Of a stretch of DNA of 64,000 nt, positions 32,645 to 46,979 are shown in pieces. The notes below the pieces were generated by a model. The model saw only the letters and a program-made list of their open reading frames with translations. It was not told where the DNA came from and ran no database searches. Both the position numbers and the translations under genes were made by a program. The stretch is from positions 62,001 to 126,000 of the forward strand of contig NZ_JAFFZE010000023.1 of NCBI RefSeq assembly GCF_025165815.1, written 5' to 3'. This DNA is from Actinophytocola gossypii (GTDB lineage Bacteria > Actinomycetota > Actinomycetes > Mycobacteriales > Pseudonocardiaceae). Positions within the stretch are counted from its first letter, which is position 1. Every line of letters begins with the position of its first letter.

Positions 32645-34435
32645 CTACGGACGGGGTGCCGGCTGGTAGGAGTCGGCCTGCGTCGCGTACATCGCGGCGT
32701 AGTGGTCGCCGGCGGCCATCAACTCGTCGTGGCCGCCGCACTCCAGGACCCGCTGGTCGCCCAGCACGACGATCTGGTCCGCGGCGCGCACCGTGGAGAA
32801 GCGGTGCGACACCAGAACCGTGACGAGCCCGCGCGCCGCGCCGGCGGAGGTGGCCGCGGCGTACCGCTCGAACAGTCCGTGCTCGGTGGCGGCGTCCAGG
32901 GACGCGGTCGGCTCGTCGAGGAACAGCACCAGGGGTTCGGCGCGCATCAGGGCCCGGCCGAGCGCCAGCTTCTGCCACTGGCCGGTGGACAGGTCGACCC
33001 CGTCCCAGCTCGCGCCGAGCTGGGTGGCCGCGCCCCTCGGGAGCGCGCGCACCAGGTCGGTCGCCCCTGCTCGGTCCACCGCCCGTGCGACCTCGCGGTC
33101 GTCGTCGAGGTGCGGCAGGTCCCCGACTCCCACGGTGCGTCCTGCGGTGAACTCGAACCGGGCGAAGTCCTGGAAGGCCGCCGAGAGCCGGCGCCGCCAG
33201 GAGGTCGGGTCGAGGTCGGCCAGGTCGACCCCGTCGACCAGGATCCGGCCCTCGGTGGGCCGGTACATCCCGGCGAGCAGCTTCACCACGGTCGTCTTGC
33301 CGGCGCCGTTCTCGCCCACCAGCGCCAGCACCGATCCCGCCGGGATGGTCAGCGAGACGTGCCGCAGCACCCAGGAGTCCGAGCCCGGATAGCGGAACGA
33401 CACGTCGTCGAACACGATCCCGCCGGTGAGTCTCTCCGGCGCCGGCAGCCCGCCCGAGCGCACCGCCGCCGCGGCCGCGTAGTCCCGCAGCCACCGCACG
33501 CGGCCGGCCGTGCGCAGGGTCTGGCCCAGCCCGCTGATGCTGAGCACCGGCCACAGCAGGGCGGTCTGCACCTGCTGGCTGAGGTAGATCACCAGCACCA
33601 CGTCGCCGGCCGGCGCATGACCGCCCAGGACGCGCCACAGCACGAACGCCACCGCGGCGACCACCCCGGCGGCGTAGCCGAGGTCGCGGGCCGCGGCCAG
33701 CAGGCCGGCCCGCCGCTCCGCGCGGTGCAGCGGGCGGCGGTGGTCGGACCAGGCACGGCCGCAGCGCCGGCCGATCTCGTCGGCCAGGCCGAACACCCGG
33801 ATCTCCATTCCGGCGTCCCGGTCGTAGGCGAGCGACCGAAGGTGGGCGGCCAGCCGGCCCGGCTCGGCCGACTCCTCCTCCGCCCGCCGGTGCCAGCGCT
33901 GCTGGATCCCGCCGGTCAGCACGGCCGGCAGCGCCAGCAGCACCAACGCCACCATCCCCGGGTGCACCCCCACCAGCAGGACGAGGACCGTGAGCGCGCC
34001 GCACACCGACTTCACCGCCATGGCCAGCGCGTTCAACGAGCGACCGAGCATGCCCTGGCCCTGCCGCAGCAGTTCCAGCTTGTCGCGGTACTCGGGGTTC
34101 TCGTGGTGGTCCAGCCCGGGCAGGGTCGCGCAGATCGTGGCGATCTCGACGTCGAAGGCGTGCGCGACCTTCTCGCTGAGGACCAGTCGCCACTGGCTGC
34201 CGGCCAGGTCGAGCTGCCACCCGAGCACCACACCGGCCACCAACCCGACCACGCCCACCACGACCGAGGACGTGTCCTGCTGGACCACTCCGGTGGTCAG
34301 GACGGCCAGCCACAGCCCGGCCAGCAGGGCGAGTACGTTGCCCAGCGGCTCCAGCACCGCCGCGGCGGTGCGCCACCGGTCGACCCGCCAGGCGGTGGTG
34401 ACCAGCAGGGCCACGGCACGCAAGTGCTCAGCCAC
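32645..34435 (-). CDS. ABC exporter (fused permease-ATPase), lanthipeptide cluster
   Basis: The 596-aa protein has about six membrane helices in residues 1-310, then an ATPase with Walker A GENGAGKTT (about 381-389), LSTGQWQKLALGRAL signature (about 490-504) and FLDEPTASLD Walker B. The SQTGQWQ-like signature is typical of exporters in lantibiotic clusters. It overlaps the preceding ABC gene by 8 nt and starts at GTG 34435. Together they probably form a heterodimeric exporter, comparable to RamA/RamB of SapB clusters, acting on the mature lanthipeptide. Confidence 0.88.
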   Translation of the reverse strand: MAEHLRAVALLVTTAWRVDRWRTAAAVLEPLGNVLALLAGLWLAVLTTGVVQQDTSSVVVGVVGLVAGVVLGWQLDLAGSQWRLVLSEKVAHAFDVEIATICATLPGLDHHENPEYRDKLELLRQGQGMLGRSLNALAMAVKSVCGALTVLVLLVGVHPGMVALVLLALPAVLTGGIQQRWHRRAEEESAEPGRLAAHLRSLAYDRDAGMEIRVFGLADEIGRRCGRAWSDHRRPLHRAERRAGLLAAARDLGYAAGVVAAVAFVLWRVLGGHAPAGDVVLVIYLSQQVQTALLWPVLSISGLGQTLRTAGRVRWLRDYAAAAAVRSGGLPAPERLTGGIVFDDVSFRYPGSDSWVLRHVSLTIPAGSVLALVGENGAGKTTVVKLLAGMYRPTEGRILVDGVDLADLDPTSWRRRLSAAFQDFARFEFTAGRTVGVGDLPHLDDDREVARAVDRAGATDLVRALPRGAATQLGASWDGVDLSTGQWQKLALGRALMRAEPLVLFLDEPTASLDAATEHGLFERYAAATSAGAARGLVTVLVSHRFSTVRAADQIVVLGDQRVLECGGHDELMAAGDHYAAMYATQADSYQPAPRP

Positions 34436-36257
34436 GGGCCGGCTCCCGCTCCCGGGCGGCGACGCGCGGCGCCGCCGGTACGAACCGTTCGGCCTGCAGG
34501 GTGAACATCGCGGCGTACCGTCCGCCGGCCGCCATCAGGTCCTCGTGCGTGCCGTCCTCGACCACCCGCCCGTCGTCGATCACCACGATGCGGTCGGCCC
34601 GGCACACCGACGCGAGCCGGTGCGAGACCAGGATCGTCGTCACCCCGGTGGTGGCCGCCCGGAAGCGGTCGAACAGCTCCGCCTCGGCCCGCACGTCCAG
34701 CGCGGCGGTCGGCTCGTCGAGCACCAGCAACCCGGCGCCGCCACGCACGGCGGCGAGCGCCCTGGCCAGGGCCACCTTCTGCCATTGGCCGCCGGAGAGG
34801 TCCTGCCCGTCGGGATAACCCGCCGACAACACGGTGTCCCAGCCGGCGCGCAGGGTCGCTGGCAGGTCGCCCGCGCCGGCGTCGGCCAGCGCGGCGGTCA
34901 GGACCTCCTGGCCGGCGCCGGGACTGCCGAAGCCGACGTTCGCGCGCAGCGGCAGCTCGTAGCGGGTGAAGTTCTGGAAGATCGCCCCGATGCGGTTGTC
35001 CGGGCCGCCGGGCGGGTGGCCGCCGATCTCCACTCGGCCGAGGTCGGGTTCGTAGAGTCCGCAGAGCACCTTGATCAGCGTGCTCTTGCCGGCCCCGTTG
35101 CCGCCGACGACGGCCACCGACTGACCGGCCGGGATCTCCAGGTCCAGGCCGTCCAGGGTGGGCCGGGTCCGTGTCGGATAGGTGAACCGCACGCCGGTCA
35201 GCCGGACCGGGAGCGCCCCGCCTGGCGCGGGTCGGCCGGCGGTCCGGGTGGCGGTCCGGGCCGGGCGGAGGGTCTGTTCCAGCCGCAGTGCCTGCCGGGC
35301 GACCTGACGCGCGCGGCCGAGGGTCAGCTCCGGCTCGCCGAGGAACCCCAGCGCGCCGGTGCCCAGCACGGCCTGCACCAGCACCACGAGCTGGGCGACC
35401 GACAACGCACCGGTCAGCGCCTGCCATCCCGCGGTGCCGAGGACCAGCAGGTGGGCGGCGGCCAGGCCCGCGCTGCCCGCCAGTACGGAGCGCATGCCCA
35501 GCGCGCGGCCGGTCCAGATGTGGCGCAGCGCCTCCCGGTAGCTGTCGGCGTAGCCGTCCACCAGCCAGCCGGCCAGCCCGAACAACCGCACCTCCTTCGC
35601 GGCGGGGGCGTCGACGGCCAGACCGCGCAGGTACCTCGGGCGGCGGGTCATCCGGGCGCCGACGGTGGTCTTGAGGCCGACGCCGTGGTCGATCCACCGC
35701 CGGACGCCGTGGGCGAGCCCGCGCCACGCCACGAGCAGCACCAGCGGCATCCACCAGGCGAACCCGACGAGCACCACGACGGATCCGAGACCGGTGGCGC
35801 GGCGCTGCACCACCTCGCGCAGCTGGCTGACGGTCCGGACGAACCCGTCGACCCGTTCGAACTCGGCCAGGGACGCGAGCTCACCGACGACCGCCGGCTC
35901 CTCCAGGGCGGCGACGTGCGGCGTGCGGAGGGTCGCCCGGGCGATCGTGTCGTGCACGACCTGGCCGTACCTGCCGTCGAGCACCCGCACCAGGTAGTCC
36001 AGTAGCGCCGTCAGCACCACTCGGACGAGCAGGGCGCCGCCGAACAGGACCAGGCCGAGCACGGCCCGGTCACCGTCGGGGGTGTGGACGGCGTCGATGA
36101 TGATCCCGGTGGCCAGGATCGCCGCGGTGGGCGCGAGGCCCTGGGCGACGGCGAGCACCCCGACACCGAGGATCCGCCAGCCGGCGGCCCGCCACAGCAT
36201 GGTCAGCAGTGCCCGGCGGGGGGCGAGGCGGGCGCGTACGGCGTCAGCCGGTCGCAC
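34428..36257 (-). CDS. ABC exporter (fused permease-ATPase), lanthipeptide cluster
   Basis: A protein of about 609 aa, starting at GTG 36257 (VRPADAVRARL), 14 nt inside the end of the protease gene. It has a membrane domain (about residues 20-310) and an ATPase with Walker A GGNGAGKST, LSGGQWQKVALARAL signature and VLDEPTAALD. The unusual first Gly-Gly in Walker A is tolerated in the family. Partner of the downstream ABC exporter (8-nt overlap). A later in-frame ATG is possible but would shorten the N-terminus. Confidence 0.86.
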   Translation of the reverse strand: MRPADAVRARLAPRRALLTMLWRAAGWRILGVGVLAVAQGLAPTAAILATGIIIDAVHTPDGDRAVLGLVLFGGALLVRVVLTALLDYLVRVLDGRYGQVVHDTIARATLRTPHVAALEEPAVVGELASLAEFERVDGFVRTVSQLREVVQRRATGLGSVVVLVGFAWWMPLVLLVAWRGLAHGVRRWIDHGVGLKTTVGARMTRRPRYLRGLAVDAPAAKEVRLFGLAGWLVDGYADSYREALRHIWTGRALGMRSVLAGSAGLAAAHLLVLGTAGWQALTGALSVAQLVVLVQAVLGTGALGFLGEPELTLGRARQVARQALRLEQTLRPARTATRTAGRPAPGGALPVRLTGVRFTYPTRTRPTLDGLDLEIPAGQSVAVVGGNGAGKSTLIKVLCGLYEPDLGRVEIGGHPPGGPDNRIGAIFQNFTRYELPLRANVGFGSPGAGQEVLTAALADAGAGDLPATLRAGWDTVLSAGYPDGQDLSGGQWQKVALARALAAVRGGAGLLVLDEPTAALDVRAEAELFDRFRAATTGVTTILVSHRLASVCRADRIVVIDDGRVVEDGTHEDLMAAGGRYAAMFTLQAERFVPAAPRVAAREREPARG

Positions 36258-38037
36258 CGGAGCGGCCTTCGGTGGACGCGGCGGCGAAGTGTTCGACGAC
36301 CGCGCGGCTCCACGGTCCCCAGTCCGCCGGCGCGTGGTTGCCCGGCTCCTCCAGGTAGCGGAGGCCGGTGTCGGCACCGCACGACCGCACCAGGTCGACC
36401 AGGCGGCGGGACTGGTCCACCGGGCAGCGGTCGTCGGACCGGCCGTGGCCGATCAGCAGCCGGGTGCCGGCCAGGACCCGCGCCTGGCTGACCGGGCTGC
36501 GTTCCCAGAGGACCCGCTGGTCGAGCCGCAGGTCGCCGAGTTCGTCGTCGAGCCAGCGCCGGCGCACCCCGGTCATCCCCGTGTGGAGCGCGGGCAGGTC
36601 GGTGACCGGCGCCCACACCGCCACCCCGGCCACCAGGTGCGGCAGTTCGGCGGCCACCCGCAGCGCGAGGTAGCCGCCGTAGCTCTGGCCGTAGACGCAC
36701 ACCGGCTGGCCGGCGTCGTGCAGGGTCTCCAGGCGGCGGCGCAGTGCGGCGGCGTCGACCCCGCCCCAGTCGCCGCGGCCCAGGTCGAGGTACCGCTCGC
36801 CGTAGCCGGAGCTGCCGGGGTAGTTCGGGCCGACCACGGACCAGCCCGCGCGGACCATGGCCTCGACGACCGGGTCGTGTTCCTGCTTCAACCGGCCGCG
36901 CGGGCCGCCGTGCAGGAACAGGACCGTGCCCGTCGCCGTGGTGCCGGTCGGTTCGAAGACCCACTCGGGAAGGTCGGTTCCGGACGCGTCGGGCACCCAC
37001 CGGTGCCGCCAGCGCATCCCGACCGGCGTGGACGTGCGCGGCGCGAGCGGGCGCGGGCACGGGTCCGGTGGGGCCCAGCGGGTGAGCCGAGGCTCGTCGG
37101 CCGGTGACTGGTGCCAGCCGATCAGGTGCCGCTCGTCCCGGGTGAGGCGGACGTCGGTCGCCAGGGTCGGCCCGGGGTCCAGTACCGCGGTGCGGTGGCC
37201 GGCGGGGTCGAGCACCTGGTAGGTGTGCCGCTGCTGGTCCCAGGTGGTGGTGAGCAGCCGGGTACCGGCCGGGGCGAGGTCCACGGCCGTGCCGCCGGGG
37301 TGGTCGTCGAACCAGCGGACCCGTCCGGTGGCGATGTCGAGAACTCCCGGCACGGTGTCGCCAGTGACGCGTGTTCCGGTCAGCCCGATCCGGCCGGCCG
37401 CGCAGCCGGCGGTCGCGGTGACCCGGGTGTCGTCGGGCTGGTCCACGGCGACCTCGACGCAGCCTGCCTGGCCGTGGCGGTAGAACCGGGTGCGGTCCAC
37501 GTCGGCGGCGAACACCCCGGCGTCGGCGTCCCACGCGCCGACCCGGCGCACTCCCCCGCTGTCCGGAACCGGGAGGTAGCTGTTCGAGCCGGCGTGGTGC
37601 AGCCACAGTTCGGGCTTGTCGGCGCCGCTCACGACCAGCAGGACGAGTACGTCGCCGCGGGCGTTCAGCCGGCACCGGAGCGGCCGGCCGAGCACCTCGC
37701 CGCGGTGGGTGACGTCGCCGGCGAGGTCGAGCACGCACAGCTGGCTCCGGCGGCCGGGGCGCCACAGTGCCAGCCGGCGGGGGCCTGCCCAGTCGAGGAC
37801 GCGCCAGTCCGGCGGCAACGGGCCGGTGACGGGCCTCGGTGGTTCGCCGTCCGGGGCGCCGTCGGGCCCGATCCGCCGGGTGACCAGCTCGATGGTCGGC
37901 TCCTCCCCCGGGGTGTCGTGCACGGTGACCAGCTCCGCGCGGTCCGGGCTGACGGTCCAGCCCAGCACCTGCCCGTCCAATGCGGTCGTCGTGGCGGTCG
38001 CGGGGGTCGCGGCGGTCGCCGAGGTCGCGGCGGTCAT
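36244..38037 (-). CDS. Prolyl-oligopeptidase family (S9) peptidase, likely lanthipeptide leader protease
   Basis: The 597-aa protein has a low-complexity Ala/Thr N-terminus (about residues 1-20), a beta-propeller-like region (about 25-340) and an S9 alpha/beta hydrolase domain with FLHGGPRG, GQSYGGYLAL (Ser452), GHGRSDDRCPV (Asp near 535) and EEPGNHAPADW (His568). In class III lanthipeptide pathways an S9 POP enzyme (FlaP of Kribbella) trims the leader, so this role is likely. Translation is coupled to the upstream gene by ATGA. The product is probably cytoplasmic, as no signal peptide is seen. Confidence 0.85.
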   Translation of the reverse strand: MTAATSATAATPATATTTALDGQVLGWTVSPDRAELVTVHDTPGEEPTIELVTRRIGPDGAPDGEPPRPVTGPLPPDWRVLDWAGPRRLALWRPGRRSQLCVLDLAGDVTHRGEVLGRPLRCRLNARGDVLVLLVVSGADKPELWLHHAGSNSYLPVPDSGGVRRVGAWDADAGVFAADVDRTRFYRHGQAGCVEVAVDQPDDTRVTATAGCAAGRIGLTGTRVTGDTVPGVLDIATGRVRWFDDHPGGTAVDLAPAGTRLLTTTWDQQRHTYQVLDPAGHRTAVLDPGPTLATDVRLTRDERHLIGWHQSPADEPRLTRWAPPDPCPRPLAPRTSTPVGMRWRHRWVPDASGTDLPEWVFEPTGTTATGTVLFLHGGPRGRLKQEHDPVVEAMVRAGWSVVGPNYPGSSGYGERYLDLGRGDWGGVDAAALRRRLETLHDAGQPVCVYGQSYGGYLALRVAAELPHLVAGVAVWAPVTDLPALHTGMTGVRRRWLDDELGDLRLDQRVLWERSPVSQARVLAGTRLLIGHGRSDDRCPVDQSRRLVDLVRSCGADTGLRYLEEPGNHAPADWGPWSRAVVEHFAAASTEGRSGATG

Positions 38038-39857
38038 CGTGGGTCCAGCAGGCCTGCCAGCGGTGACAGGCGCTCGTGGGTGCCGCGCCGCGCGGTGAGC
38101 TCCGCGTCCAACCGCTCGAGCACCTGGACGGATCGGTCGTCGTCCAGTGCCCGCAGGTTGCGCACGATGCCCTCGAGCGCCGCGGGGGCGGCCCGGCGCA
38201 TCCGCAGTGCCGCCTGGGCGTACCACCCGGCCGCGGCGCCCACCCCGCCCGCGGCCAGCTGGGCCGCGGCCAGGCGGCAGCACACCCCCACCACGGCGCG
38301 TTCGGCCGCGCGGCGCGGGGCGACGTTCCGGTCGTACCGGCGAACCAGCTGGTCGGCCACCCGCTCCGCCTCCGGGAGCCAGCCCTGGTCGAGCAGCCGG
38401 CGAACCAGGTTCGGCACCACGTAGGTCAGCGCCACCAGCGAGTCGGCGTCCACCGCGACCCGGAACGCCTCCTGGCCGCACCGGATCGCCTCCAGCGCGG
38501 TGCCGTCGCCGCGGGCGTGGACGTCGGCCAGGTTGGTCAGCAGCAACACGCGCTGCTCCGCCAGTGCCCGCGTGCTCGGCACGCCGGGGGCCGACAGCGC
38601 GGCCAGGCCGGCCAGTTCCGCACGCACGGCGCCGTCGCGGTCCCCGGCCCGGAAGCGCGCCAGCGCCTCGCCGTTGTAGCTGGCGGCGATCCGGCTGGCG
38701 ACGCCGCCCGGGGTGGCCCGGACGTGTTCCCGCGCGTAGGCGAAGTGGCGGGTGCTCGCGGCCCAGCCGGCCGGGCGGCGGGACTTCGCGAGGATCTGAC
38801 CGAGGTGGTACCCGAGCAGGGACCGGACCGGGGCGTCGACACCGGTCCGTTCGGCGAGGGCGAGCACCCGGTCCGCGGCGGCCGGGGAGAGCCGGCCGCG
38901 GCCCGCGCTGACGAACGCGGCGAGGTGCAGCGCGTAGGCGGTGCTCCGGTCCACGTCGGACCAGCCGCGCCGCCGGCCGCCCCACAGGACCGACCGGGTG
39001 ACGTCGAGGAGCGCCGAGGGCCGGTCGGCCGCCGCGGCGCAGCTCGCCGCGGTGATGGCGGTCAGCGCGGCCGCCGGGTCGTCGGCGAGCGCCGCAGTCG
39101 ACAGCGGGACGACGTCGGCGGGAGCGTCGTCGTCCCGGCTGGTGACCATGGTCGCCACGGTGCGGAGGAGTTCCTGGCCGGTCCTGGCCAGGACGGCTCC
39201 GGCCGCGGCCCAGGCGCGGACGTCGGCGTAGGTGCGCACGGGTCCCCGGGGACCGGGCCGGGTGGAGGTCAGCGCGGCCACTGTGGCCGGGTCCCAGCGG
39301 CGCAGCCGGGTCCACCTGGCGACCCGGGCGTCGCTCGCCTGGCCGCCGGCCAGCCGCATGGCCAGCAGGATCTCGTCGGTCTCGGGGTCGCCGGGCGGCC
39401 GGGTGCCGGCGCCCGGCCGGCCGGTGTGGCGCAGCACGACGATGCGCGGCTGGTCCGGTCGGCGTTGCCCGCACGCGTGCAGGAACGCGACCTGGTCCCT
39501 GGTGGCCGGGCCGAACAGCTCGGCCACCAGGATCTTGGGGCCGCCGGTGTCGGCGGCGAGCCAGGTGCCGACCTCGGTCAGTTCGTGCTCGACGGCGGCG
39601 TCGCGTTCCTCGCGGCAGTGCAGGAGGCCCTCCGCCCTGGCGAGCACGGACCGGCGGTCGGGGTGGGGCTCGGTGCCGAAGGCCCAGAGGGGGACGCTCG
39701 CGGTGCCGGAGCCGGCGGACAGGTAGTACCGCGGTCCGTGCCGCTCGGCGGCGTCGGTCACGGCGGCCGCGATCTCGGCGGACGTGGCCTCGACGATCCG
39801 CGGTCCTGGTGCGCCGGTGGTCGGGTCGGTCAGCGCGTCGAGCGGGTCAGCGCCCAT
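38034..39857 (-). CDS. Unknown 607-aa helical-repeat protein of the lanthipeptide cluster
   Basis: ATG 39857 lies 8 nt after GGAGG (the in-frame GTG at 39866 overlaps that site). Residues 1-170 look globular, with GPRYYLSAGSGTASVPLWAFG, a possible His/Cys centre in LLHCREERDAAVEHELTEV and ILVAELFGPATRDQVAFLHACGQ. The rest is Ala/Leu/Arg-rich paired helices (for example SYNGEALARFRAGDRDGAVRAEL) resembling a TPR scaffold. I do not recognise the family. Overlapping stops and starts with the GNAT and protease genes place it firmly in the biosynthetic operon. Confidence 0.8.
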   Translation of the reverse strand: MGADPLDALTDPTTGAPGPRIVEATSAEIAAAVTDAAERHGPRYYLSAGSGTASVPLWAFGTEPHPDRRSVLARAEGLLHCREERDAAVEHELTEVGTWLAADTGGPKILVAELFGPATRDQVAFLHACGQRRPDQPRIVVLRHTGRPGAGTRPPGDPETDEILLAMRLAGGQASDARVARWTRLRRWDPATVAALTSTRPGPRGPVRTYADVRAWAAAGAVLARTGQELLRTVATMVTSRDDDAPADVVPLSTAALADDPAAALTAITAASCAAAADRPSALLDVTRSVLWGGRRRGWSDVDRSTAYALHLAAFVSAGRGRLSPAAADRVLALAERTGVDAPVRSLLGYHLGQILAKSRRPAGWAASTRHFAYAREHVRATPGGVASRIAASYNGEALARFRAGDRDGAVRAELAGLAALSAPGVPSTRALAEQRVLLLTNLADVHARGDGTALEAIRCGQEAFRVAVDADSLVALTYVVPNLVRRLLDQGWLPEAERVADQLVRRYDRNVAPRRAAERAVVGVCCRLAAAQLAAGGVGAAAGWYAQAALRMRRAAPAALEGIVRNLRALDDDRSVQVLERLDAELTARRGTHERLSPLAGLLDPR

Positions 39858-40680
39858 GGCGCACACCTCCGTCAGGGATTCGGGTGACCCGCAGCGGGGG
39901 TCGCCTCGGGCTGAACCCGACCGACCGGTACAGCCGGTGGGCGATCCAGTTGTCCGCCACCACGTTCAGGTGGCAGTCGGCGTAGCCGGCGGCGGCCAGC
40001 CGGCGCAGGCTCTCGACCAGTACGGCCCGGCCGAGGCCGTGCCCCCGGTGGGCCTCACCGGTCACGCAGTGGCCGATGAGCGGACGGCCTCGGTACTCGC
40101 TCACCGCGATCGCGGCGGTCACGCCGGAGCCGGTGCCGACCGCCAGGCTGGCGTCGGCGATCACGGGTCCGTAGCCGCCGGACCGGACGTCGCGCCAGAC
40201 GGCGAGGTCACGCTCCCGGCCGGGTCCGGTGCTCAGGCCGGCGAGGTCCGCCTCGGTGGTGGTGTGCAGCGGGACGATCGCGTGGCCGTCGGGCAGCGGC
40301 CGGTGGTGCGCCCGCAGCTGCTCGTCGTCGAGCAGCAGCCCCAGGTGGGCCATCCGGTGCAGCGGCGTGACGCCGTGCCCGCTGAGGTGTTCGTCCCAGT
40401 CGGCCGGGTGGACCGCCAGGACCGTGGTGACGCCGAGGTCGTCGCGAACCCGGTCGGCGGCGGCCACCAGCAGGCCGGCCAGTCGCGGATCGCGGCGTCG
40501 CGGCAGGAGCTCGTCCAGCAGGCACGACTCGCGGCCGGTTCGCGTGGCCAGACAGGTGAGGACCGTGCCGTCGGCGGACACGGCGCGGACCAGCCAGGTG
40601 TTGTCCCACCACGACACCAGCTCGGTCCTGGTGGCGAACGGCGGCGCGTCGGCTCCGGTGCGGTCGTCGACGGCGGTCAT
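39847..40680 (-). CDS. GNAT-family N-acetyltransferase of the lanthipeptide cluster
   Basis: The 277-aa protein has a C-terminal GNAT fold with acetyl-CoA motif ALSRGHGLGR-like sequence TGEAHRGHGLGRAVLVESLRR (about residues 205-225) and CHLNVVADNWIAHRLYRSVGF. The N-terminal half looks like a second, degenerate GNAT-like domain (LAVHPADWDEHLSGHGVTPLHRMAHLGLLL), as in tandem GNAT enzymes. It overlaps the synthetase stop and the next start. It may acetylate the lanthipeptide or serve immunity; neither can be told from sequence. Confidence 0.82.
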   Translation of the reverse strand: MTAVDDRTGADAPPFATRTELVSWWDNTWLVRAVSADGTVLTCLATRTGRESCLLDELLPRRRDPRLAGLLVAAADRVRDDLGVTTVLAVHPADWDEHLSGHGVTPLHRMAHLGLLLDDEQLRAHHRPLPDGHAIVPLHTTTEADLAGLSTGPGRERDLAVWRDVRSGGYGPVIADASLAVGTGSGVTAAIAVSEYRGRPLIGHCVTGEAHRGHGLGRAVLVESLRRLAAAGYADCHLNVVADNWIAHRLYRSVGFSPRRPPLRVTRIPDGGVRHGR

Positions 40681-43274
40681 GGTGTGCTCCTCGCGGGGGC
40701 GATGGTGAGGGGGGCGTCGGCCACGAGTCCGGCCAGGCGTAGCCGGAAGGCGTGCACCCCGAGATATCCGCGCATGTAGCTGGGCCGGGGCTCGCCGCCG
40801 CCCTCGTGCGCCCACTTCCAGGCGAACCCGTCCCGGAACCGCAGCGCGTCGAGCTTGCGGCCGATGGTCTCGGCGCCCCGCCGGAACTCGCCGTCGTGGT
40901 CGGCGCGAGCGGCCAGGTCCAGCAGGAAGTCCCCGTCACCGGCCAGGCCGTGACAACGGCAGGTGCTCCCGTAGGCGCGGCCGCGGGTGATGGCCCGCCC
41001 GGCGCGGCGGGCGGCGTCGATCAGGGCCGGGTCACCGCTGGCGAGCCCGGCCGACAGCAGGAGCGCGCCGACGCCGGCGGCACCGTTGCACCAGTGGGTC
41101 CAGGGCACCGCGCGGCCGGTCGGGCCGCTGCGCCAGCTCAGCCCGGCGCCGCCGGCCGTCGGCACGCCCAGGTCCGGCAGGGCGGCGGCGACGCCCGTCG
41201 CGGCGTCGACCAGGTCGTGATCGCCGGTCGCGGTACCGGCGGCCAGCAGGAAGTAGCCGATGCCGGCGCTGCCGTGCGCGAAGCCGGTGCTGTACGTGTC
41301 CGGTTCGCCGCCGCGGGGCCAGACCAGCAGGCCGTCGCGGTCCGTGCCGGCGGCGAGGACGTGGTGGGCGATCCGGGTCACGGCGGCCCGGCGGTCCGCG
41401 TCGCCCCCGGTGGCGAGCATCGTCCCGACCTGGGCCAGCCCGATGCCGGCCCAGCCGTGGGTGATGTCCCAGCTGCCGGGGTCCGCCTCGACCAGGGCGT
41501 CGGCCAGCTGGACTGCCCGTTCGCGGAGCACGGGGGCCCGGCCGGGATCGACCAGGTTCGCCAGGTCGGCGGCGAGCCACGGCAGCGCGGCGATGCCGAA
41601 GTGCAGTCCGGGTGGTGTGCGGCCGGGGACGAACGGCACGGTGGTGAAGGTCCAGTCGAGGAGGTCGTCGGCGTGGTCGAGCCAGGCCCGGTCGCCGGTG
41701 GCGTGCCACAGGTCGAGGTAGTACCGCGCCACGCCGGTCGTCCCGGTGTGGAAGCAGGCCGGGTGGAACAGACCCGAGGACCACTCCTCCGGCCACGGCC
41801 AGGACGCGCGGTCCCACTCCACCCGTCGCGTGAGCTCCAGACCGGCCTCGACCGCCTCCTCGACGATCTGGGCCGGTCCGGGCGCCGGGGTGCCGGACGG
41901 CGAGCGGACCGGGCCGCCCAGCCGGGTCCGGACCAGGTCCAGCTCGGCCTCGACCGGCTCGGTCTCGGTCGGCCCGAACGCGGTCAGCAACGCGTCGACG
42001 TGGGTGGAGATGTCCTGTGCCCGGCCGAGGAACGGGTCGATCCCGGTCAGGACGAAGTAGGTGATCGCGGCGACGGCGAAGTCGGTGTCGCCCGCGTCCG
42101 GCGGACGTCCGTCCCGGGACGGGGCGTAGCCGGGGGTCCAGCCGGCGAACGGCGGCTCGGGTGAGTCCGCGATCTCGAACAGTTCCAGGTCCACGGCGGT
42201 GTACCGGCCTTCGTGGACCATGATGTTGTTCGGGGTGAAGTCGCGGGGGCGCACGCCGTGGTCGCGCAGGCGCGCGGCGAGGTCGGCGACCGCCCGGCAG
42301 CTGTTCCGGAGCTCGTCCGGGTCCGGGCGGCCCAGGTAGTTGGCGTTCTCGACGGAAGCGCGCAGGGTCACGCCCGGGAGGAACTCCTCGACCAGGTAGA
42401 CGTTGTCCCGCTCGACGAACAGGTCCAGCGGTTCCGGCGCGAGCCCGGTTCCGCTCAGCCGGCGCAGGATGGTCCACTCGTTGCGCAGCCGCGTTCCCGC
42501 GTCCCGCCCGATCAGGTCCGGGCAGGTCCCCGCCCGGCCCTCCTTGACCACGACGTCGCGGCCGCGCCAGGTGCCGCGGTAGACCCCGCCCTTGGCGGAC
42601 TGGTTGAGCACCCCGTGCACCGTGATGCCCCGGCCGAACAGCCCGTCCCCGTGGCGGCGCGGCTCCCGCGCGTCGGGCAGGGGTGGTTCCGGCACCCAGG
42701 GCGGCCGGGTCTGGCCCGGTGCCCGGACGTCGGGGACCTGGTTGCCGTCCGGGTCGACGAGGTACGACTGCCTGGTCTGCTCGGGGACGGCGTAGTCGGA
42801 CCGCCTGGTGAACGCCCCGTACCTGAGGTAGACGTTGCTCTCGCGCCGGTAGCGCCGGTCGCTGGGGACCACCGGCCCGGTCAGGTCGCGGGTCGCGGTG
42901 TGCAGCTGCTCGGCGAGCACCGGGAGGTGGTCCTCGTCGTCGACGTAGACCGTGATGAACTTCCCGACCTGGGACAGCGGGGTCGGCGGTCCGGACAGGC
43001 GGGCCAGCTGGTCGACCGTCTGGGCCGACTTCCACCGCACGCCGCGCGGCAGAACGATCCGCGCCACCCGGCGCAGTGCCTCCGCCGCGGTGAGCGGGGA
43101 GGCGCTGACGTGCAGCTTCCACCCCTGGGGCGGCAGGGGGGCCGAGCTGATCGGGTCGAAGTGCCACCAGCCGCCGTCCGCCCGGAGCTGGTAGGTGGTG
43201 CGGTACTCGCCGGCCAGTTGGCGAGCGGTCGTCGAGACGGGTTCGACCGCCGAGCGGGTTCGTCGGACGGACAC
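40677..43274 (-). CDS. Three-domain lanthionine synthetase (LanKC/LanL type) with zinc ligands
   Basis: The 865-aa enzyme starts at GTG 43274. Order: phosphoSer/Thr lyase domain (about 20-200; WKLHVSASP, KFITVYVDDED, VYLRYGAF); Ser/Thr kinase (about 205-440; VVVKEG Lys244, RDFTPNNIM Asp345/Asn350, AVDLELFE Asp362); LanC-like cyclase (about 480-850). The cyclase has the zinc set WCNG (Cys729) and CRCHG (Cys774, His775). Class III LanKC enzymes lack these ligands and class IV LanL enzymes have them, so this fits class IV by that criterion. It dehydrates Ser/Thr of the precursor and closes thioether rings. Confidence 0.93.
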   Translation of the reverse strand: MSVRRTRSAVEPVSTTARQLAGEYRTTYQLRADGGWWHFDPISSAPLPPQGWKLHVSASPLTAAEALRRVARIVLPRGVRWKSAQTVDQLARLSGPPTPLSQVGKFITVYVDDEDHLPVLAEQLHTATRDLTGPVVPSDRRYRRESNVYLRYGAFTRRSDYAVPEQTRQSYLVDPDGNQVPDVRAPGQTRPPWVPEPPLPDAREPRRHGDGLFGRGITVHGVLNQSAKGGVYRGTWRGRDVVVKEGRAGTCPDLIGRDAGTRLRNEWTILRRLSGTGLAPEPLDLFVERDNVYLVEEFLPGVTLRASVENANYLGRPDPDELRNSCRAVADLAARLRDHGVRPRDFTPNNIMVHEGRYTAVDLELFEIADSPEPPFAGWTPGYAPSRDGRPPDAGDTDFAVAAITYFVLTGIDPFLGRAQDISTHVDALLTAFGPTETEPVEAELDLVRTRLGGPVRSPSGTPAPGPAQIVEEAVEAGLELTRRVEWDRASWPWPEEWSSGLFHPACFHTGTTGVARYYLDLWHATGDRAWLDHADDLLDWTFTTVPFVPGRTPPGLHFGIAALPWLAADLANLVDPGRAPVLRERAVQLADALVEADPGSWDITHGWAGIGLAQVGTMLATGGDADRRAAVTRIAHHVLAAGTDRDGLLVWPRGGEPDTYSTGFAHGSAGIGYFLLAAGTATGDHDLVDAATGVAAALPDLGVPTAGGAGLSWRSGPTGRAVPWTHWCNGAAGVGALLLSAGLASGDPALIDAARRAGRAITRGRAYGSTCRCHGLAGDGDFLLDLAARADHDGEFRRGAETIGRKLDALRFRDGFAWKWAHEGGGEPRPSYMRGYLGVHAFRLRLAGLVADAPLTIAPARSTP

Positions 43275-43324
43275 GGGTTTCTCCCTGCGCTTCGTCCCGA
43301 GGCTGGACGTCTCGGCGGTGTCTT

Positions 43325-43360
43325 TCGTGGGGCTCCGGCGGGTCTGCCGGAGCCCCACGA
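43325..43360 (-). terminator. Attenuator-like hairpin between precursor and synthetase genes
   Basis: Perfect 15-bp inverted repeat (43325-43339 with 43346-43360) with a 6-nt loop, 12 nt after the precursor stop and 50 nt before the synthetase start. Such hairpins commonly give partial termination, so that precursor mRNA exceeds synthetase mRNA. Confidence 0.8.
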
Positions 43361-43372
43361 ACAACAGCTCGG

Positions 43373-43492
43373 TTAGTGCTGGTCGCTGTCGGTCCAGCTG
43401 CACACGGTGCAGAGGGACGGGTCCTCCATCAGGAACGGGTCGTTCTCGTAGCCCAGCTCCATCAGGTCGTCCGCGGTCAGCGCGTCGCGCAT
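43373..43492 (-). CDS. Lanthipeptide precursor peptide (39 aa)
   Basis: The peptide has a charged leader with helical look (MRDALTADDLMELGYENDPF) followed by the putative core after EDP: SLCTVCSWTDSDQH. The core has two Cys, three Ser and two Thr, so S-x-C and T-x-C rings are possible. AGAGGTG lies before ATG 43492. It is the first gene of the operon and directly precedes the synthetase, as expected for a LanA. The leader has no LLDLQ class III motif, and I do not match it to a known lanthipeptide; the cleavage site is not certain. Confidence 0.85.
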   Translation of the reverse strand: MRDALTADDLMELGYENDPFLMEDPSLCTVCSWTDSDQH

Positions 43493-43544
43493 GGCACACC
43501 TCTTTCTGACTCGATCGGTGGATCGGCGGGTTCGGCGAATCGGG

Positions 43545-43610
43545 TCAGTCCCAGATGAAACCGTCGGCCGCTGCGACACCCGCATTTACTGCCAGAATCG
43601 TGGTCGACAT
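43545..43610 (-). CDS. Possible 21-aa peptide gene upstream of the lanthipeptide precursor
   Basis: An ATG at 43610, 10 nt after AAAGG, opens a 21-codon frame ending in TGA at 43545: MSTTILAVNAGVAAADGFIW plus Asp. It lies 52 nt before the precursor start in lower-GC DNA. The hydrophobic stretch and absence of Cys argue against a second lanthipeptide core. It may be an upstream leader peptide, a signal peptide or chance. Confidence 0.3.
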   Translation of the reverse strand: MSTTILAVNAGVAAADGFIWD

Positions 43611-43742
43611 TTTCGTTGACCTTTCTTCGTTTCTCCCACCATTTCCGGTGACACCTGAAACTGTGCTTCACGAAAGCATGATCGAGCCAGGCGCCAGGCG
43701 GTCAGCAAGCTGACATGCCGATGGCAACATCCTGACCGGAGG

Positions 43743-44735
43743 TCACAGCCAACCGCGTCTGGCGGCTTCCACTCCCGCCTCGAACCGGCTCGTCGCATTC
43801 AGCCGTTCCATCAGCCGGGCGACCTTCCGGCGAAGGTGCCGAACAGATATTCCGACCGTCCTGGCCGCCGATTCGTCGGTGTTTCCGGCGGCGAGCAGTT
43901 CGAGCACGGCGCGGTCCTGGTCGGTGACGTCGTCCTGGTCCTCCGCCGGCGGGTCGTCGAAGCTGACCGTGGTCGCGTCGTCCCACAGGCGCCAGAACAG
44001 GCGGATGAACCCGGCGATCAGTCCGGGCTGGGTCACGATCAGCGCGCCGCGGCTGCTGTTGTCCGGGTCGATCGGGACCATCGCGACCCGCTCGTCCATG
44101 ATCATCATGCGTTCCAGCGGGTCCTCGATGGCGTGGATCTTCGCCCCGGCGTCGAGCATCTGCCGCGCGTACTCGACGCCGAGCCGGTTCCGCAGGAACC
44201 CGGTCTGGTAGATCGTGCGCATGTCGATGCCCCGGCGCAGGCCGCGCAGGTCCAGCGGCCGGCTGGCGTCCAGCGCGGCCGGGCTGATCGACTCGCCCGG
44301 CTGCACCGAGTACAGGCTCGACCTGGTGAAGAACGCCAACTCCTCCAGACGTTCACGTACACGGCCGAGGTCCTCGATCCGTTCCAGGCCGGCCACCGGT
44401 TCGGTGCGTTCCCGGCCGGCGTAGCGAGCGGCCAGGTCGGCGATCTCGGCTCGGGTGTCGCCGACCCGCCGGTGCCGCCGCAGCAACTCGTCCTCGCGCT
44501 GTTCGACCAGCTTGGCGAGCGCCGCGGCGGGGTGGTTCACCACCACCTTGGCCGGCGCGTCCGGGGCGGGCCGGACCGCGCCGAGCCCGACCAGCGACTC
44601 GACGGCGTCGTAGAGCTCGCTGTCGGTGCAGTCCATGAAGTCGACCAGTTCCGCCGGTCGCGCCTGGGGCAGGTCGAGCAGCGTGCGGTACACGCGCTCG
44701 GCGAGCGGAGTGAACCCGAGGTCACGCAGCGCCAT
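43743..44735 (-). CDS. LuxR-type transcriptional regulator with TrmB-like N-terminus
   Basis: The 330-aa protein starts at ATG 44735 (GTG 44741 possible). The N-terminal winged-helix-like part (LGFTPLAERVYRTLLDLPQARPAELVDFM, about residues 5-33) is followed by a central domain with RLGVEYARQMLDAGAKIHAIEDPLERMMIMDERVAMVPID (PLD-like regulator fold) and a C-terminal LuxR HTH (about 268-325, LLAAGNTDESAARTVGISVRHLRRKVARLMERL). Regulators of this layout often lie at the head of actinobacterial natural-product clusters. It is about 130 nt upstream of the peptide genes and likely drives the lanthipeptide operon. Confidence 0.88.
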   Translation of the reverse strand: MALRDLGFTPLAERVYRTLLDLPQARPAELVDFMDCTDSELYDAVESLVGLGAVRPAPDAPAKVVVNHPAAALAKLVEQREDELLRRHRRVGDTRAEIADLAARYAGRERTEPVAGLERIEDLGRVRERLEELAFFTRSSLYSVQPGESISPAALDASRPLDLRGLRRGIDMRTIYQTGFLRNRLGVEYARQMLDAGAKIHAIEDPLERMMIMDERVAMVPIDPDNSSRGALIVTQPGLIAGFIRLFWRLWDDATTVSFDDPPAEDQDDVTDQDRAVLELLAAGNTDESAARTVGISVRHLRRKVARLMERLNATSRFEAGVEAARRGWL

Positions 44736-44830
44736 GTTCACCGTCCCACGGCAGGATGGTGACACGGCCCTGGCAGCAACGTGCCCAGGCAAACGCCGCC
44801 GAACGGCGCGTCGTTCGCCAGGATGAACGG

Positions 44831-45091
44831 GTGCGGGAGGCGTGGACGTCGGCGGAGCACCAGGTCGTGGTGCGTCGGGTCGCCGTGGACGCGTCCGCCC
44901 CGGTCATCGCGGCCGCCCGGCTGGCCGCCGAACTCGGACCGGAGGTGTCCGTCGAGTGGGCGGCCGAGAGCGACGTCTTGCGCGTCGCCGGCCCCGCTCC
45001 ACGGCTGCGGCACGCGGTGACCGCGGTCATCGCCGAGACCAGGTTTCGCGGCTGGTCGCTGTCCGATGACGACGAGACCGCGGGCGGGTAG
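44831..45091 (+). CDS. Small hypothetical protein, 86 aa
   Basis: GTG 44831 opens VREAWTSAEHQVVVRRVAVD; third codon positions are almost all G/C from here on but clearly less so upstream, which is why this start is preferred to the in-frame ATG at 44756. Alternating strand-helix pattern (VVVRRVAVDASAPVIAAARLAAEL, VSVEWAAESDVLRVAG, RHAVTAVIAETRFRGWSL) suggests a small alpha/beta fold. No known family. Divergent from the LuxR gene. Confidence 0.5.
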   Translation: MREAWTSAEHQVVVRRVAVDASAPVIAAARLAAELGPEVSVEWAAESDVLRVAGPAPRLRHAVTAVIAETRFRGWSLSDDDETAGG

Positions 45092-45225: not shown

Positions 45226-46101
45226 TCAGCGCGGCTGGCGGATGCCGTCGATGATGCGGGTCCAGTTGTCGCCGCCGTGGCCGTCCTCGATCGCCCGCCG
45301 GTAGTGGGCCTGGACGGCCAGCGGTAGCGCGAGGTCGAGCCCGAGGGACGCGCTGGTGTCGACGATGTGGTCGGCGGTCGCGCCCATCATGGTGACCGTG
45401 CTGAGGTGGCCGGGGTGCTCCCCGGCGTCCAGCGCGGCGCCGGGGGCCTCCTCGCCGGACCGGATCATCGTGCCGACGGAGTCGGCGGCGGAGAGCAGTT
45501 CCGGCAGTACCTCCTCGGCCTTCATCCCGGCCCCGCCCAGCATCGCGATCGCGTGCATCAGCCCGGACAGGGTGGTGAGGAACAACGCGAGCTGGGCCTG
45601 GTACATCAGCTGGGCGAGGCCGGGATCCTCGCCCAGGTACCTCGGCTCGCCGATCAGCGTCAACGCCGCCAGGTGGCGGTCCAGCACCTCGTGCGGTCCG
45701 CTGTAGTAGACGTACGCCTCCGCCGTCCCGACCATCGGGGCCGGCGTCATCACCCCGCCGGTGAGGAAGGCCGCGCCGTGGCGCTCGGCCCAGGTCGCCG
45801 CCTCGCGGGTGCGCTCCGGGGTGTCCGAGCTGAGGTTGGCCAGGGTCCGGCCGGCGAGCGCGTCGGTGGCGTCGCCGAGGATGTCGTACATCGCCTGGTA
45901 GTCGGTGAGGCTGAGAAGCACGAGGTCGCTCGCCAGGACGGCGTCGGCCGGGGTGGCGGCGAGCACGGCGCCGTCGGCGACGACGCCCTCGGCCCGGGCG
46001 GCGGTGCGGTTCCAGACGGTGACCGGGTGCCCGGCGGCGACCAGCACACGGACCATCGCCTGGCCCATCGGTCCGAGCCCGATGACGGTGACGCGGCTCA
46101 T
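45226..46101 (-). CDS. Imine reductase-like NADPH oxidoreductase (Tyr-type)
   Basis: The 291-aa protein has a Rossmann start (VTVIGLGPMGQAMVRVLVAAGHPVTVWNRT), the linker NLSSDTPERTREAATWAERHG, GGVMTPAPMVG and YLGEDPGLAQLMYQAQLAL. The first two motifs and the GxDxGxA segment are hallmarks of the imine reductase (IRED) family. At the catalytic position, seven residues into that segment, it has Tyr where many IREDs have Asp. Natural substrates of IREDs are mostly unknown. Translation is coupled to the preceding IRED gene (ATGA). Confidence 0.85.
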   Translation of the reverse strand: MSRVTVIGLGPMGQAMVRVLVAAGHPVTVWNRTAARAEGVVADGAVLAATPADAVLASDLVLLSLTDYQAMYDILGDATDALAGRTLANLSSDTPERTREAATWAERHGAAFLTGGVMTPAPMVGTAEAYVYYSGPHEVLDRHLAALTLIGEPRYLGEDPGLAQLMYQAQLALFLTTLSGLMHAIAMLGGAGMKAEEVLPELLSAADSVGTMIRSGEEAPGAALDAGEHPGHLSTVTMMGATADHIVDTSASLGLDLALPLAVQAHYRRAIEDGHGGDNWTRIIDGIRQPR

Positions 46102-46979
46102 CGCGCAACCGCCCGGTCGGGAGCGCGCAGGCTCTCGTAGATCCGCTCGAACACCTCGGCGCCGTGACCGGCCGCGACCTGCTGGTCGATCAGCCCCTGG
46201 ACGGCCACGATCGTGGCCGGGTCGACGCCCTGCTCCTCGCTGGCCTGGACGATGTGGCCGAGGTCGGAGAAGTCGAGGCTCTGCCCGGGCACGGTGTAGT
46301 CGCCGCCGTCGATGATCTCCGCCGACCGGGCGAAGTGCGCGGTCATGGCGCCGACGAAGGGGATCGCCCGCACGGCGAAGTCCGTGGCGCGCACGCCGGC
46401 GGACCCGGCCATGGCGGCGCCGTGCGTGAGGCCGGCGAACATGCCGTACATCGCCGAGAGCATCGCGAGGTCGAGCAGCGAGGCCATGCCGGCGTCCTCG
46501 CCGTGGAACTCGCTGGTCGCCCAGACGTCGAACACCGGCCGGCAGGCGTCGAAGGCCGCCGCCGAGCCGCTGTAGAAGACCTGGCCCTCGCGGGAGCCGA
46601 TCATCGGCGGGGTCGCCATGATCGCGCCGTCGAGGTAGCGGATGCCGTGGCCGGTGGCCCAGGTGGCGAGTTCGCGGGCCTCGTTGGGGGTCGTGGTGGT
46701 GAGGTTGACCAGGGTGCGGCCGCGGAGGTCGTCGACGACCGGGGCGAGGGTCTCGTGCACGGAGTCGTGCCGCAGCAGGCAGGCGACCACGATCGGGTGG
46801 GCGGTGACGGCGTCGCGGACGGTGGCCGCTCGCGTGACGGCCAGGCCGGGGGCCCTGCCGGGGGTGCGGTTCCAGACGGTGGTCGGGTGGCCGGCGTCGG
46901 CGAGCGCGGCGGCCAGGGCGCTGCCCATGGCGCCGAGGCCGAGGAGCGTGACACCCGCGGTGTTGTTCGTTTCGTTCAC
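46098..46979 (-). CDS. Imine reductase-like NADPH oxidoreductase (Asp-type)
   Basis: The 293-aa protein starts at GTG 46979. Motifs: VTLLGLGAMGSALAAALADAGHPTTVWNRTPGR, NLTTTTPNEARELATWATGHG, YLDGAIMATPPMIG and FHGEDAGMASLLDLAMLSAMYG, with Asp at the catalytic position (LLDLAM). First gene of a two-gene unit with the Tyr-type homologue (4-nt overlap) and divergent from an HxlR regulator, across a region with a clear operator. Redox conversion of an imine, or of a hydroxyacid-like substrate as in relatives, is possible. Confidence 0.87.
   Translation of the reverse strand: MNETNNTAGVTLLGLGAMGSALAAALADAGHPTTVWNRTPGRAPGLAVTRAATVRDAVTAHPIVVACLLRHDSVHETLAPVVDDLRGRTLVNLTTTTPNEARELATWATGHGIRYLDGAIMATPPMIGSREGQVFYSGSAAAFDACRPVFDVWATSEFHGEDAGMASLLDLAMLSAMYGMFAGLTHGAAMAGSAGVRATDFAVRAIPFVGAMTAHFARSAEIIDGGDYTVPGQSLDFSDLGHIVQASEEQGVDPATIVAVQGLIDQQVAAGHGAEVFERIYESLRAPDRAVAR

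Follow-up and report, generated by a model that had tools for sequence, protein, structure and literature searches.

A conserved Actinophytocola gossypii lanthipeptide gene cluster with a deep-branching, class IV-type synthetase and a very short precursor

Lanthionine synthetases of class IV (LanL; curated model NF038150) carry an SpvC/OspF-like lyase, a Ser/Thr kinase and a LanC-like cyclase with the zinc ligands Cys, Cys-His in a single chain. Class III synthetases (LanKC; NF038151) share the three-domain order; their cyclase lacks zinc ligands, and their precursors are marked by an LLDLQ-like leader motif and an SxxSxxxC core. FlaP, a prolyl oligopeptidase, is the leader protease of the class III product flavipeptin, and the review that describes it (PMC10885120) names prolyl oligopeptidases for both classes. 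According to Walker et al. (2020; PMC7268733), class IV products had no reported secondary modification, though acetyltransferases are present in some clusters. The window analyzed here, a 64,000-nt stretch of Actinophytocola gossypii (Pseudonocardiaceae; contig NZ_JAFFZE010000023.1, positions 62,001 to 126,000), contains a minus-strand lanthipeptide gene cluster that is comparable with these systems in several respects and departs from each of them in others. We consider it likely that the cluster encodes a lanthipeptide pathway of class IV type that forms a deep-branching lineage of its own. The gene set is compact and conserved, and it probably converts a very short peptide into an exported product with rings.

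All minus-strand cluster genes of the window are present, with proper starts and stops. An earlier note on this stretch had described a precursor, a synthetase, a GNAT acetyltransferase, a 607-aa protein and an S9 peptidase, with six genes coupled by overlaps. Each of these components was found, together with two ATP-binding cassette (ABC) half-transporters, and the six genes from the synthetase to the second transporter overlap successively by 4, 11, 4, 14, and 8 nt. In order along the minus strand, the features are:

43743..44735, minus strand: TrmB-LuxR regulator, 330 aa (Pfam TrmB 26.9 bits, GerE 24.0 bits, both barely above cut-off)
43701..43714, minus strand: candidate operator GTCAGCTTGCTGAC, an inverted repeat that recurs near related regulators
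43545..43610, minus strand: tiny open reading frame (ORF) of 21 codons, MSTTILAVNAGVAAADGFIWD, which ends in DGFIWD and belongs to a set of FxWD-ending peptides
43373..43492, minus strand: precursor peptide, 39 aa, with the predicted core SLCTVCSWTDSDQH after D24-P25, from an alignment with eight others
40677..43274, minus strand: class IV-type lanthionine synthetase, 865 aa, with RamC_N lyase, kinase, and LanC-like cyclase
39847..40680, minus strand: GNAT acetyltransferase, 277 aa, acyl-CoA motif RGHGLG (Pfam FR47 and Acetyltransf_1 above cut-off)
38034..39857, minus strand: 607-aa protein of no family, perhaps an alpha-helical repeat protein
36244..38037, minus strand: S9-family peptidase, 597 aa, triad motifs GQSYGG, DDR, and GNH (Peptidase_S9 69.7 bits)
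34428..36257, minus strand: ABC half-transporter 1 (ABC_tran; Pfam matches without a peptidase domain)
32645..34435, minus strand: ABC half-transporter 2 (ABC_tran; Pfam matches without a peptidase domain)

The Pfam scan gave no match for the 607-aa protein or the precursor. Upstream of the cluster and outside the conserved module lies a gene for an NADPH-dependent reductive aminase-like protein (window 46098-46979, minus strand).

The synthetase search covered 249 Pseudonocardiaceae genomes and gave matches at 1e-40 in 41, among which six stand apart at 51–100% synthetase identity: the window's own genome, Actinokineospora bangkokensis (G393), and four genomes of genus g12 (G1110, G1082, G1133, and G1102), here called Lentzea-type. 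The named loci, taken from a genome-collection scan, are those of A. bangkokensis, Lentzea waywayandensis, L. flava, and L. nigeriaca; the synthetase ORFs of the last two agree with the ORFs of G1082 and G1133 in all of their last 600 residues and were treated as one with them. All six loci keep the same succession of precursor, synthetase, GNAT, 607-aa protein, S9 peptidase, ABC, and ABC (the last gene of L073 extends beyond the fetched stretch), giving an ordered module in 6/249 genomes. A DNA-level search with the core pattern SLCxxCxW returned eight matches, all beside the synthetase and in those six genomes only, and the reversed control returned none in the 249 genomes; a ninth precursor, in A. 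bangkokensis, escapes the pattern with Leu replacing Trp. Because the same gene order and eight further precursors recur in five other genomes, the cluster is beyond chance. Among 397 genomes of the order, the 607-aa protein was matched in two (the window's and G393), neither of them Lentzea-type. Plasmid records yielded two synthetases only, both distant. In the four Lentzea-type loci (L015, 7142-9541, minus strand; L016; L017; L073), a LanM (class II) gene lies divergent from the adjoining precursor gene, and a single precursor is thus flanked by class II and class IV-type synthetases.

Precursors occur as four tandem copies in A. bangkokensis and as one copy in each Lentzea-type genome. Across the alignment of nine, D9, L10, G14, E16, D18, D24, S26, L27, C28, C31, and T34 are invariant, and all share the leader motif DLxxxG[YF]E and the core motif S-L-C-x-[VL]-C-[ST]-x-T, in which position 32 is Ser or Thr; core length ranges from 13 to 17 residues. 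Neither motif occurs in the papers searched. The earlier note had read the core as S-x-C and T-x-C units, and the first of these holds, with S26 and C28 invariant. The second fails as a ring unit: position 29 is Thr in six precursors and Ser, Val, or Ala in one each. The absence of an LLDLQ-like motif, reported for the window's leader, extends to 9/9 precursors, and none of the nine has SxxSxxxC spacing. The residues preceding Ser26 are DP in 5/9 precursors and DN in the four Lentzea-type ones, which contain no Pro at all.

The assignment of the synthetase relies on profile scores and on the zinc site. Among Pfam domains, RamC_N (158 bits) and LANC_like (105 bits) score above cut-off and Pkinase (20.4 bits) below its cut-off of 31.7. 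The whole protein scores 536 bits against the class IV model (cut-off 650) and 358 against the class III model (cut-off 575). The lyase-kinase part is nearly even at 333 (class IV) and 293 bits (class III), and the cyclase part alone is clearly class IV, at 203 bits compared with 85 for LanM and 62 for class III. The closest solved structure is 8car (165 bits), which we take to be the class IV enzyme CuvL, followed by class III LanKC entries at 100 bits. The zinc ligands named in the earlier note (C729, C774, and H775) are confirmed in the alignment and occupy the same columns in 6/6 members of the clade; the same CCH set is found in 25 of the 26 rows of the class IV clade described below (L061 lacks both Cys) and in 0/11 class III rows, and the columns read CCC in all six L052-like rows. 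The kinase residues K244, D345, and D362 and the lyase stretch are likewise preserved in 6/6 clade members, with LLD instead of PRD in the four Lentzea-type kinases. Since profile scores and zinc ligands both point to class IV, the enzyme is treated as class IV-type. It resembles class III LanKC enzymes in domain order and in the score of its lyase-kinase part, but differs from them in its zinc ligands, in its cyclase score, and in precursors that lack both the LLDLQ-like motif and SxxSxxxC. The window's own genome also encodes a class III LanKC at a separate locus (G000:C45:134038-136533, L066), which scores 1089 bits against NF038151, above cut-off.

We analyzed synthetase phylogeny with a quick tree of 52 rows, supported by the Shimodaira–Hasegawa-like approximate likelihood ratio test only. 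Rows were synthetase ORFs from the fetched loci (phmmer, 1e-20); repeats of the window and A. bangkokensis were left out (L001, L003-L005, L014, L020, L033, L072, and L075, with P0002 and P0009 kept), rows with identical last 600 residues were merged, and an incomplete ORF at the edge of L031 was excluded. The six synthetases group together (support 100, stem 1.12), apart from both an 11-row class III clade (support 100) and a 26-row class IV clade (support 97), which contains six of the seven class IV references. Approximately unbiased (AU) tests gave p values of 0.12 for a grouping with class III, 0.154 with the 26 rows, and 0.226 with the 26 plus the L052-like rows, none of them rejected. 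Phylogeny thus places the synthetase outside both the class III clade and the main class IV clade and leaves every tested grouping standing. It is by its sequence features, not by its branching, that the synthetase is class IV-type. Judged in this way, its lineage is distinct and deep-branching, near the known class IV lanthipeptides, and not a class III/IV mixture. Twenty other class IV-type loci (18 from the 26-row clade and two L052-like) served for comparison; in the 1.6 kb upstream of their synthetases, inspected by eye, most have no recognizable Cys-bearing precursor (candidates at L093 and L095).

Several observations weigh against a class IV-type pathway. The curated class IV cut-off is missed by the window's synthetase and by two relatives, at 525 and 545 bits, whereas seven class IV references (L006, L011, L038, L039, L045, L051, and L052) exceed it at 784–1136 bits; within the 52 rows, this scoring took in those seven, P0009, and L015. 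The AU tests do not fix the sister group. The LanM beside the precursor in 4/4 Lentzea-type loci represents a second synthetase that might share the work, and the DN that precedes the Lentzea-type cores, in place of DP, makes a single cleavage rule uncertain. The precursor core departs from SxxSxxxC spacing and, to our knowledge, resembles no class IV core, two features that make ring formation a guess.

The regulator lies outside the conserved module. As judged by appearance, the sister clusters have other regulators: that of A. bangkokensis is SARP-type, and the three Lentzea loci read have a LAL-type gene further on, past LanM. Homologs of the window's regulator at E 1e-15 occur in 191 of the 249 family genomes, marking it as a member of a common family. 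Of the 30 regulator loci fetched, 14, among them the window, reach 43% identity or more, and 16 fall below. An FxWD-ending ORF lies downstream of the regulator at 10/14 of the closer loci and 0/16 of the others, and the 1.3 Mb of pooled loci, which include duplicates and are enriched for loci of this kind, contain ten distinct F.WD-stop ORFs that are exactly those ten. A lanthipeptide synthetase is present within the fetched stretch at 12 of the 14 closer loci: LanM at L137, L139, and L142; class III above cut-off at L134, L138, L141, and L144; class IV-type at L088 and in the window; and matches whose class was not scored by profile at L140, L143, and L145. The fetched stretches of L135 and L136 (a 3.4 kb contig) have none. 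Three of the four loci that lack the FxWD ORF (L105, L106, L109, and L114, equivalent to L134, L135, L138, and L142) have a synthetase, and the two are therefore not always found together.

As a synthetase substrate the FxWD peptide was ruled out, as the L144 member contains no Ser, Thr, or Cys, and the five class III loci (L140, L141, L143, L144, and L145) have precursors of their own behind the synthetase. These class III precursors stand in tandem, two to four per cluster; their leaders contain ELQ(N/D)L, and examples of their cores are KSTASIVC, KSTASVVC, KSTSSVVC, and KSTMSNIC. Sites resembling GTCAGCTTGCTGAC (up to two mismatches) lie between the regulator and the next large gene at 8/14 loci, one of which is the window, the source of the motif, and five occur elsewhere in the scanned loci; the L140 site is the weakest, and those of L140 and L143 were placed by comparison with relatives. 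Ten simple shuffles of one 16 kb stretch gave a mean of 0.1 site, and a consensus scan of 43250-45000 found no promoter-like site. Next to the regulator, a divergent ORF of 111 aa (window 44756-45091, plus strand) has a partly coding-like composition. Upstream of the four A. bangkokensis precursors, behind a SARP/AfsR-type-looking gene, an ORF of 47 codons, signal-like at its N-terminus, has the C-terminus SDTPWD (L005 15176-15316, minus strand) and is possibly another WD-ending peptide. Among 66 plasmid records, four from Streptomyces (L146-L149) carry looser relatives of the regulator, and their annotation has no lanthipeptide synthetase within 5 kb of these; one of the relatives, a distant TrmB-LuxR homolog (37%) on a plasmid of Streptomyces sp. 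NBC_01244 (L148), adjoins annotated daptide biosynthesis genes.

The FxWD peptide and the regulator are an unexplained conserved pair, the unexpected part of this cluster. Our literature search found no paper joining TrmB, LuxR, and lanthipeptide, and its listed matches for an FxWD-type peptide were unrelated. TrmB together with signaling peptides of gene clusters led to a broad review, and among the 5 listed of 81 papers from 2026 none has TrmB. A tentative proposal, which we hold to be possible rather than probable, is an undescribed peptide circuit in which a cytoplasmic TrmB-LuxR regulator senses the C-terminal FxWD of the adjacent peptide and acts at GTCAGCTTGCTGAC. The same wiring would recur in the Pseudonocardiaceae beside lanthipeptide genes of classes II, III, and IV; here the controlled product would come from a separate synthetase lineage and would have a very short, acetylated SLCxxC(S/T) core. 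A related reading, compatible with a class IV-type pathway, is that this regulator and the FxWD peptide control a product with a signaling or developmental role in place of an antibiotic. The shortness of the product and the proximity of the pair to lanthipeptide genes of several classes speak for such a role, but the regulator does not track the product among the sister clusters, and a dedicated exporter together with a GNAT would equally fit a toxin with self-protection; a signaling role is possible rather than probable.

A second alternative concerns the rings, namely that the synthetase only dehydrates or phosphorylates its substrate, so that the product would contain dehydroalanine or dehydrobutyrine and a Cys28-Cys31 disulfide or free thiols, with no lanthionine. 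The S-x-C ring would be unusually small in our judgment, at three residues, the core spacing matches none known, and two Cys three residues apart are present in 9/9 precursors. Yet the zinc ligands are preserved in every clade member, Ser26, Ser/Thr32, and Thr34 are kept alongside both Cys in all nine precursors, and a six-residue ring between S26 and C31 could form without use of S-x-C. Absence of lanthionine thus appears improbable.

The earlier note had taken the S9 peptidase, which it called a prolyl-oligopeptidase, as a class III marker within a mixed class III/class IV cluster. Its membership in the S9 family stands, with the Ser, Asp, and His of the motifs preserved in 6/6 members, and its closest chains in the PDB are acylamino-acid-releasing enzymes. 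Like FlaP, it is an S9-family serine peptidase encoded within a lanthipeptide cluster; the differences noted are these nearest solved relatives and the precursors without Pro in the Lentzea-type loci. Cleavage after Pro would suit the DP context of five precursors and not the other four. The Pfam matches of the ABC pair include no C39 peptidase, and a separate leader protease is therefore expected. As S9 homologs also occur at 7/20 of the other class IV-type loci, followed by two ABC genes in six of these (L076, L077, L084, L085, L089, and L094), the enzyme is not a class III marker. A true hybrid, in which a class IV synthetase recruited a class III protease and class III-like maturation, draws on a synthetase outside both main clades, the unrejected class III grouping, and the near-even lyase-kinase scores, but can be set aside as the main explanation and is improbable given this distribution of S9 peptidases, the clearly class IV cyclase part, the zinc ligands, and nine precursors without either class III-like motif. 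Of the earlier reading, the lanthipeptide cluster itself, its unusual precursor, and the possible new tailoring genes are supported. A mixture of classes is not needed, although the missed cut-off, the nearly even lyase-kinase scores, and the isolated branching speak for it.

The GNAT and the 607-aa protein, both conserved throughout, mark this lineage. The six actinomycete class IV-type clusters listed above share the succession of synthetase, S9 peptidase, and two ABC half-transporters, but their synthetases are only about 32–37% identical to that of the window, and no homolog of either protein was found in any of the 20 other loci (tblastn, E 1e-4). RGxGxG is present in 5/5 aligned GNAT members. 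Relatives of the 607-aa protein are 39–47% identical; weak HEAT matches occur in two of five members and TPR in one, the window's protein has neither, and it gave no PDB match. Its derivation from a degraded LAL regulator was considered and dropped, since hhalign returned a probability of 0.1% against a LAL-type protein of Lentzea.

In the class IV-type pathway that we favor, the leader motif DLxxxG[YF]E would act as the recognition element that delivers the precursor to the trifunctional synthetase. That enzyme would phosphorylate and eliminate the conserved Ser26, Ser/Thr32, and Thr34, or some of them, after which its zinc cyclase would add Cys28 and Cys31 to the dehydrated residues. The S9 peptidase could then cut between D-[PN] and Ser, releasing a product of 13–17 residues that begins with Ser26 or its lanthionine. 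Whether as a maturation step or as self-protection, the GNAT probably acetylates the N-terminus so exposed or some other amine, and export would fall to the two ABC half-transporters. The 607-aa protein may serve as a scaffold that holds the precursor or the enzymes together, which is a guess. Gene order, overlaps, conservation, zinc ligands, domain content, and co-occurrence are observed directly, whereas the product, its rings, and the activities of all the enzymes are inferred.

If the pathway works as proposed, its 39-aa precursor with a 14-residue core would be a minimal lanthipeptide substrate. A synthetase lineage outside the recognized class III and class IV groups would help to ask how zinc and zinc-free cyclases diverged, and the conserved GNAT, whose gene overlaps that of the synthetase, offers a direct test case for secondary modification in class IV. 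The FxWD peptide, if it is a signal, may provide a means of activating lanthipeptide clusters that are silent in related actinomycetes.

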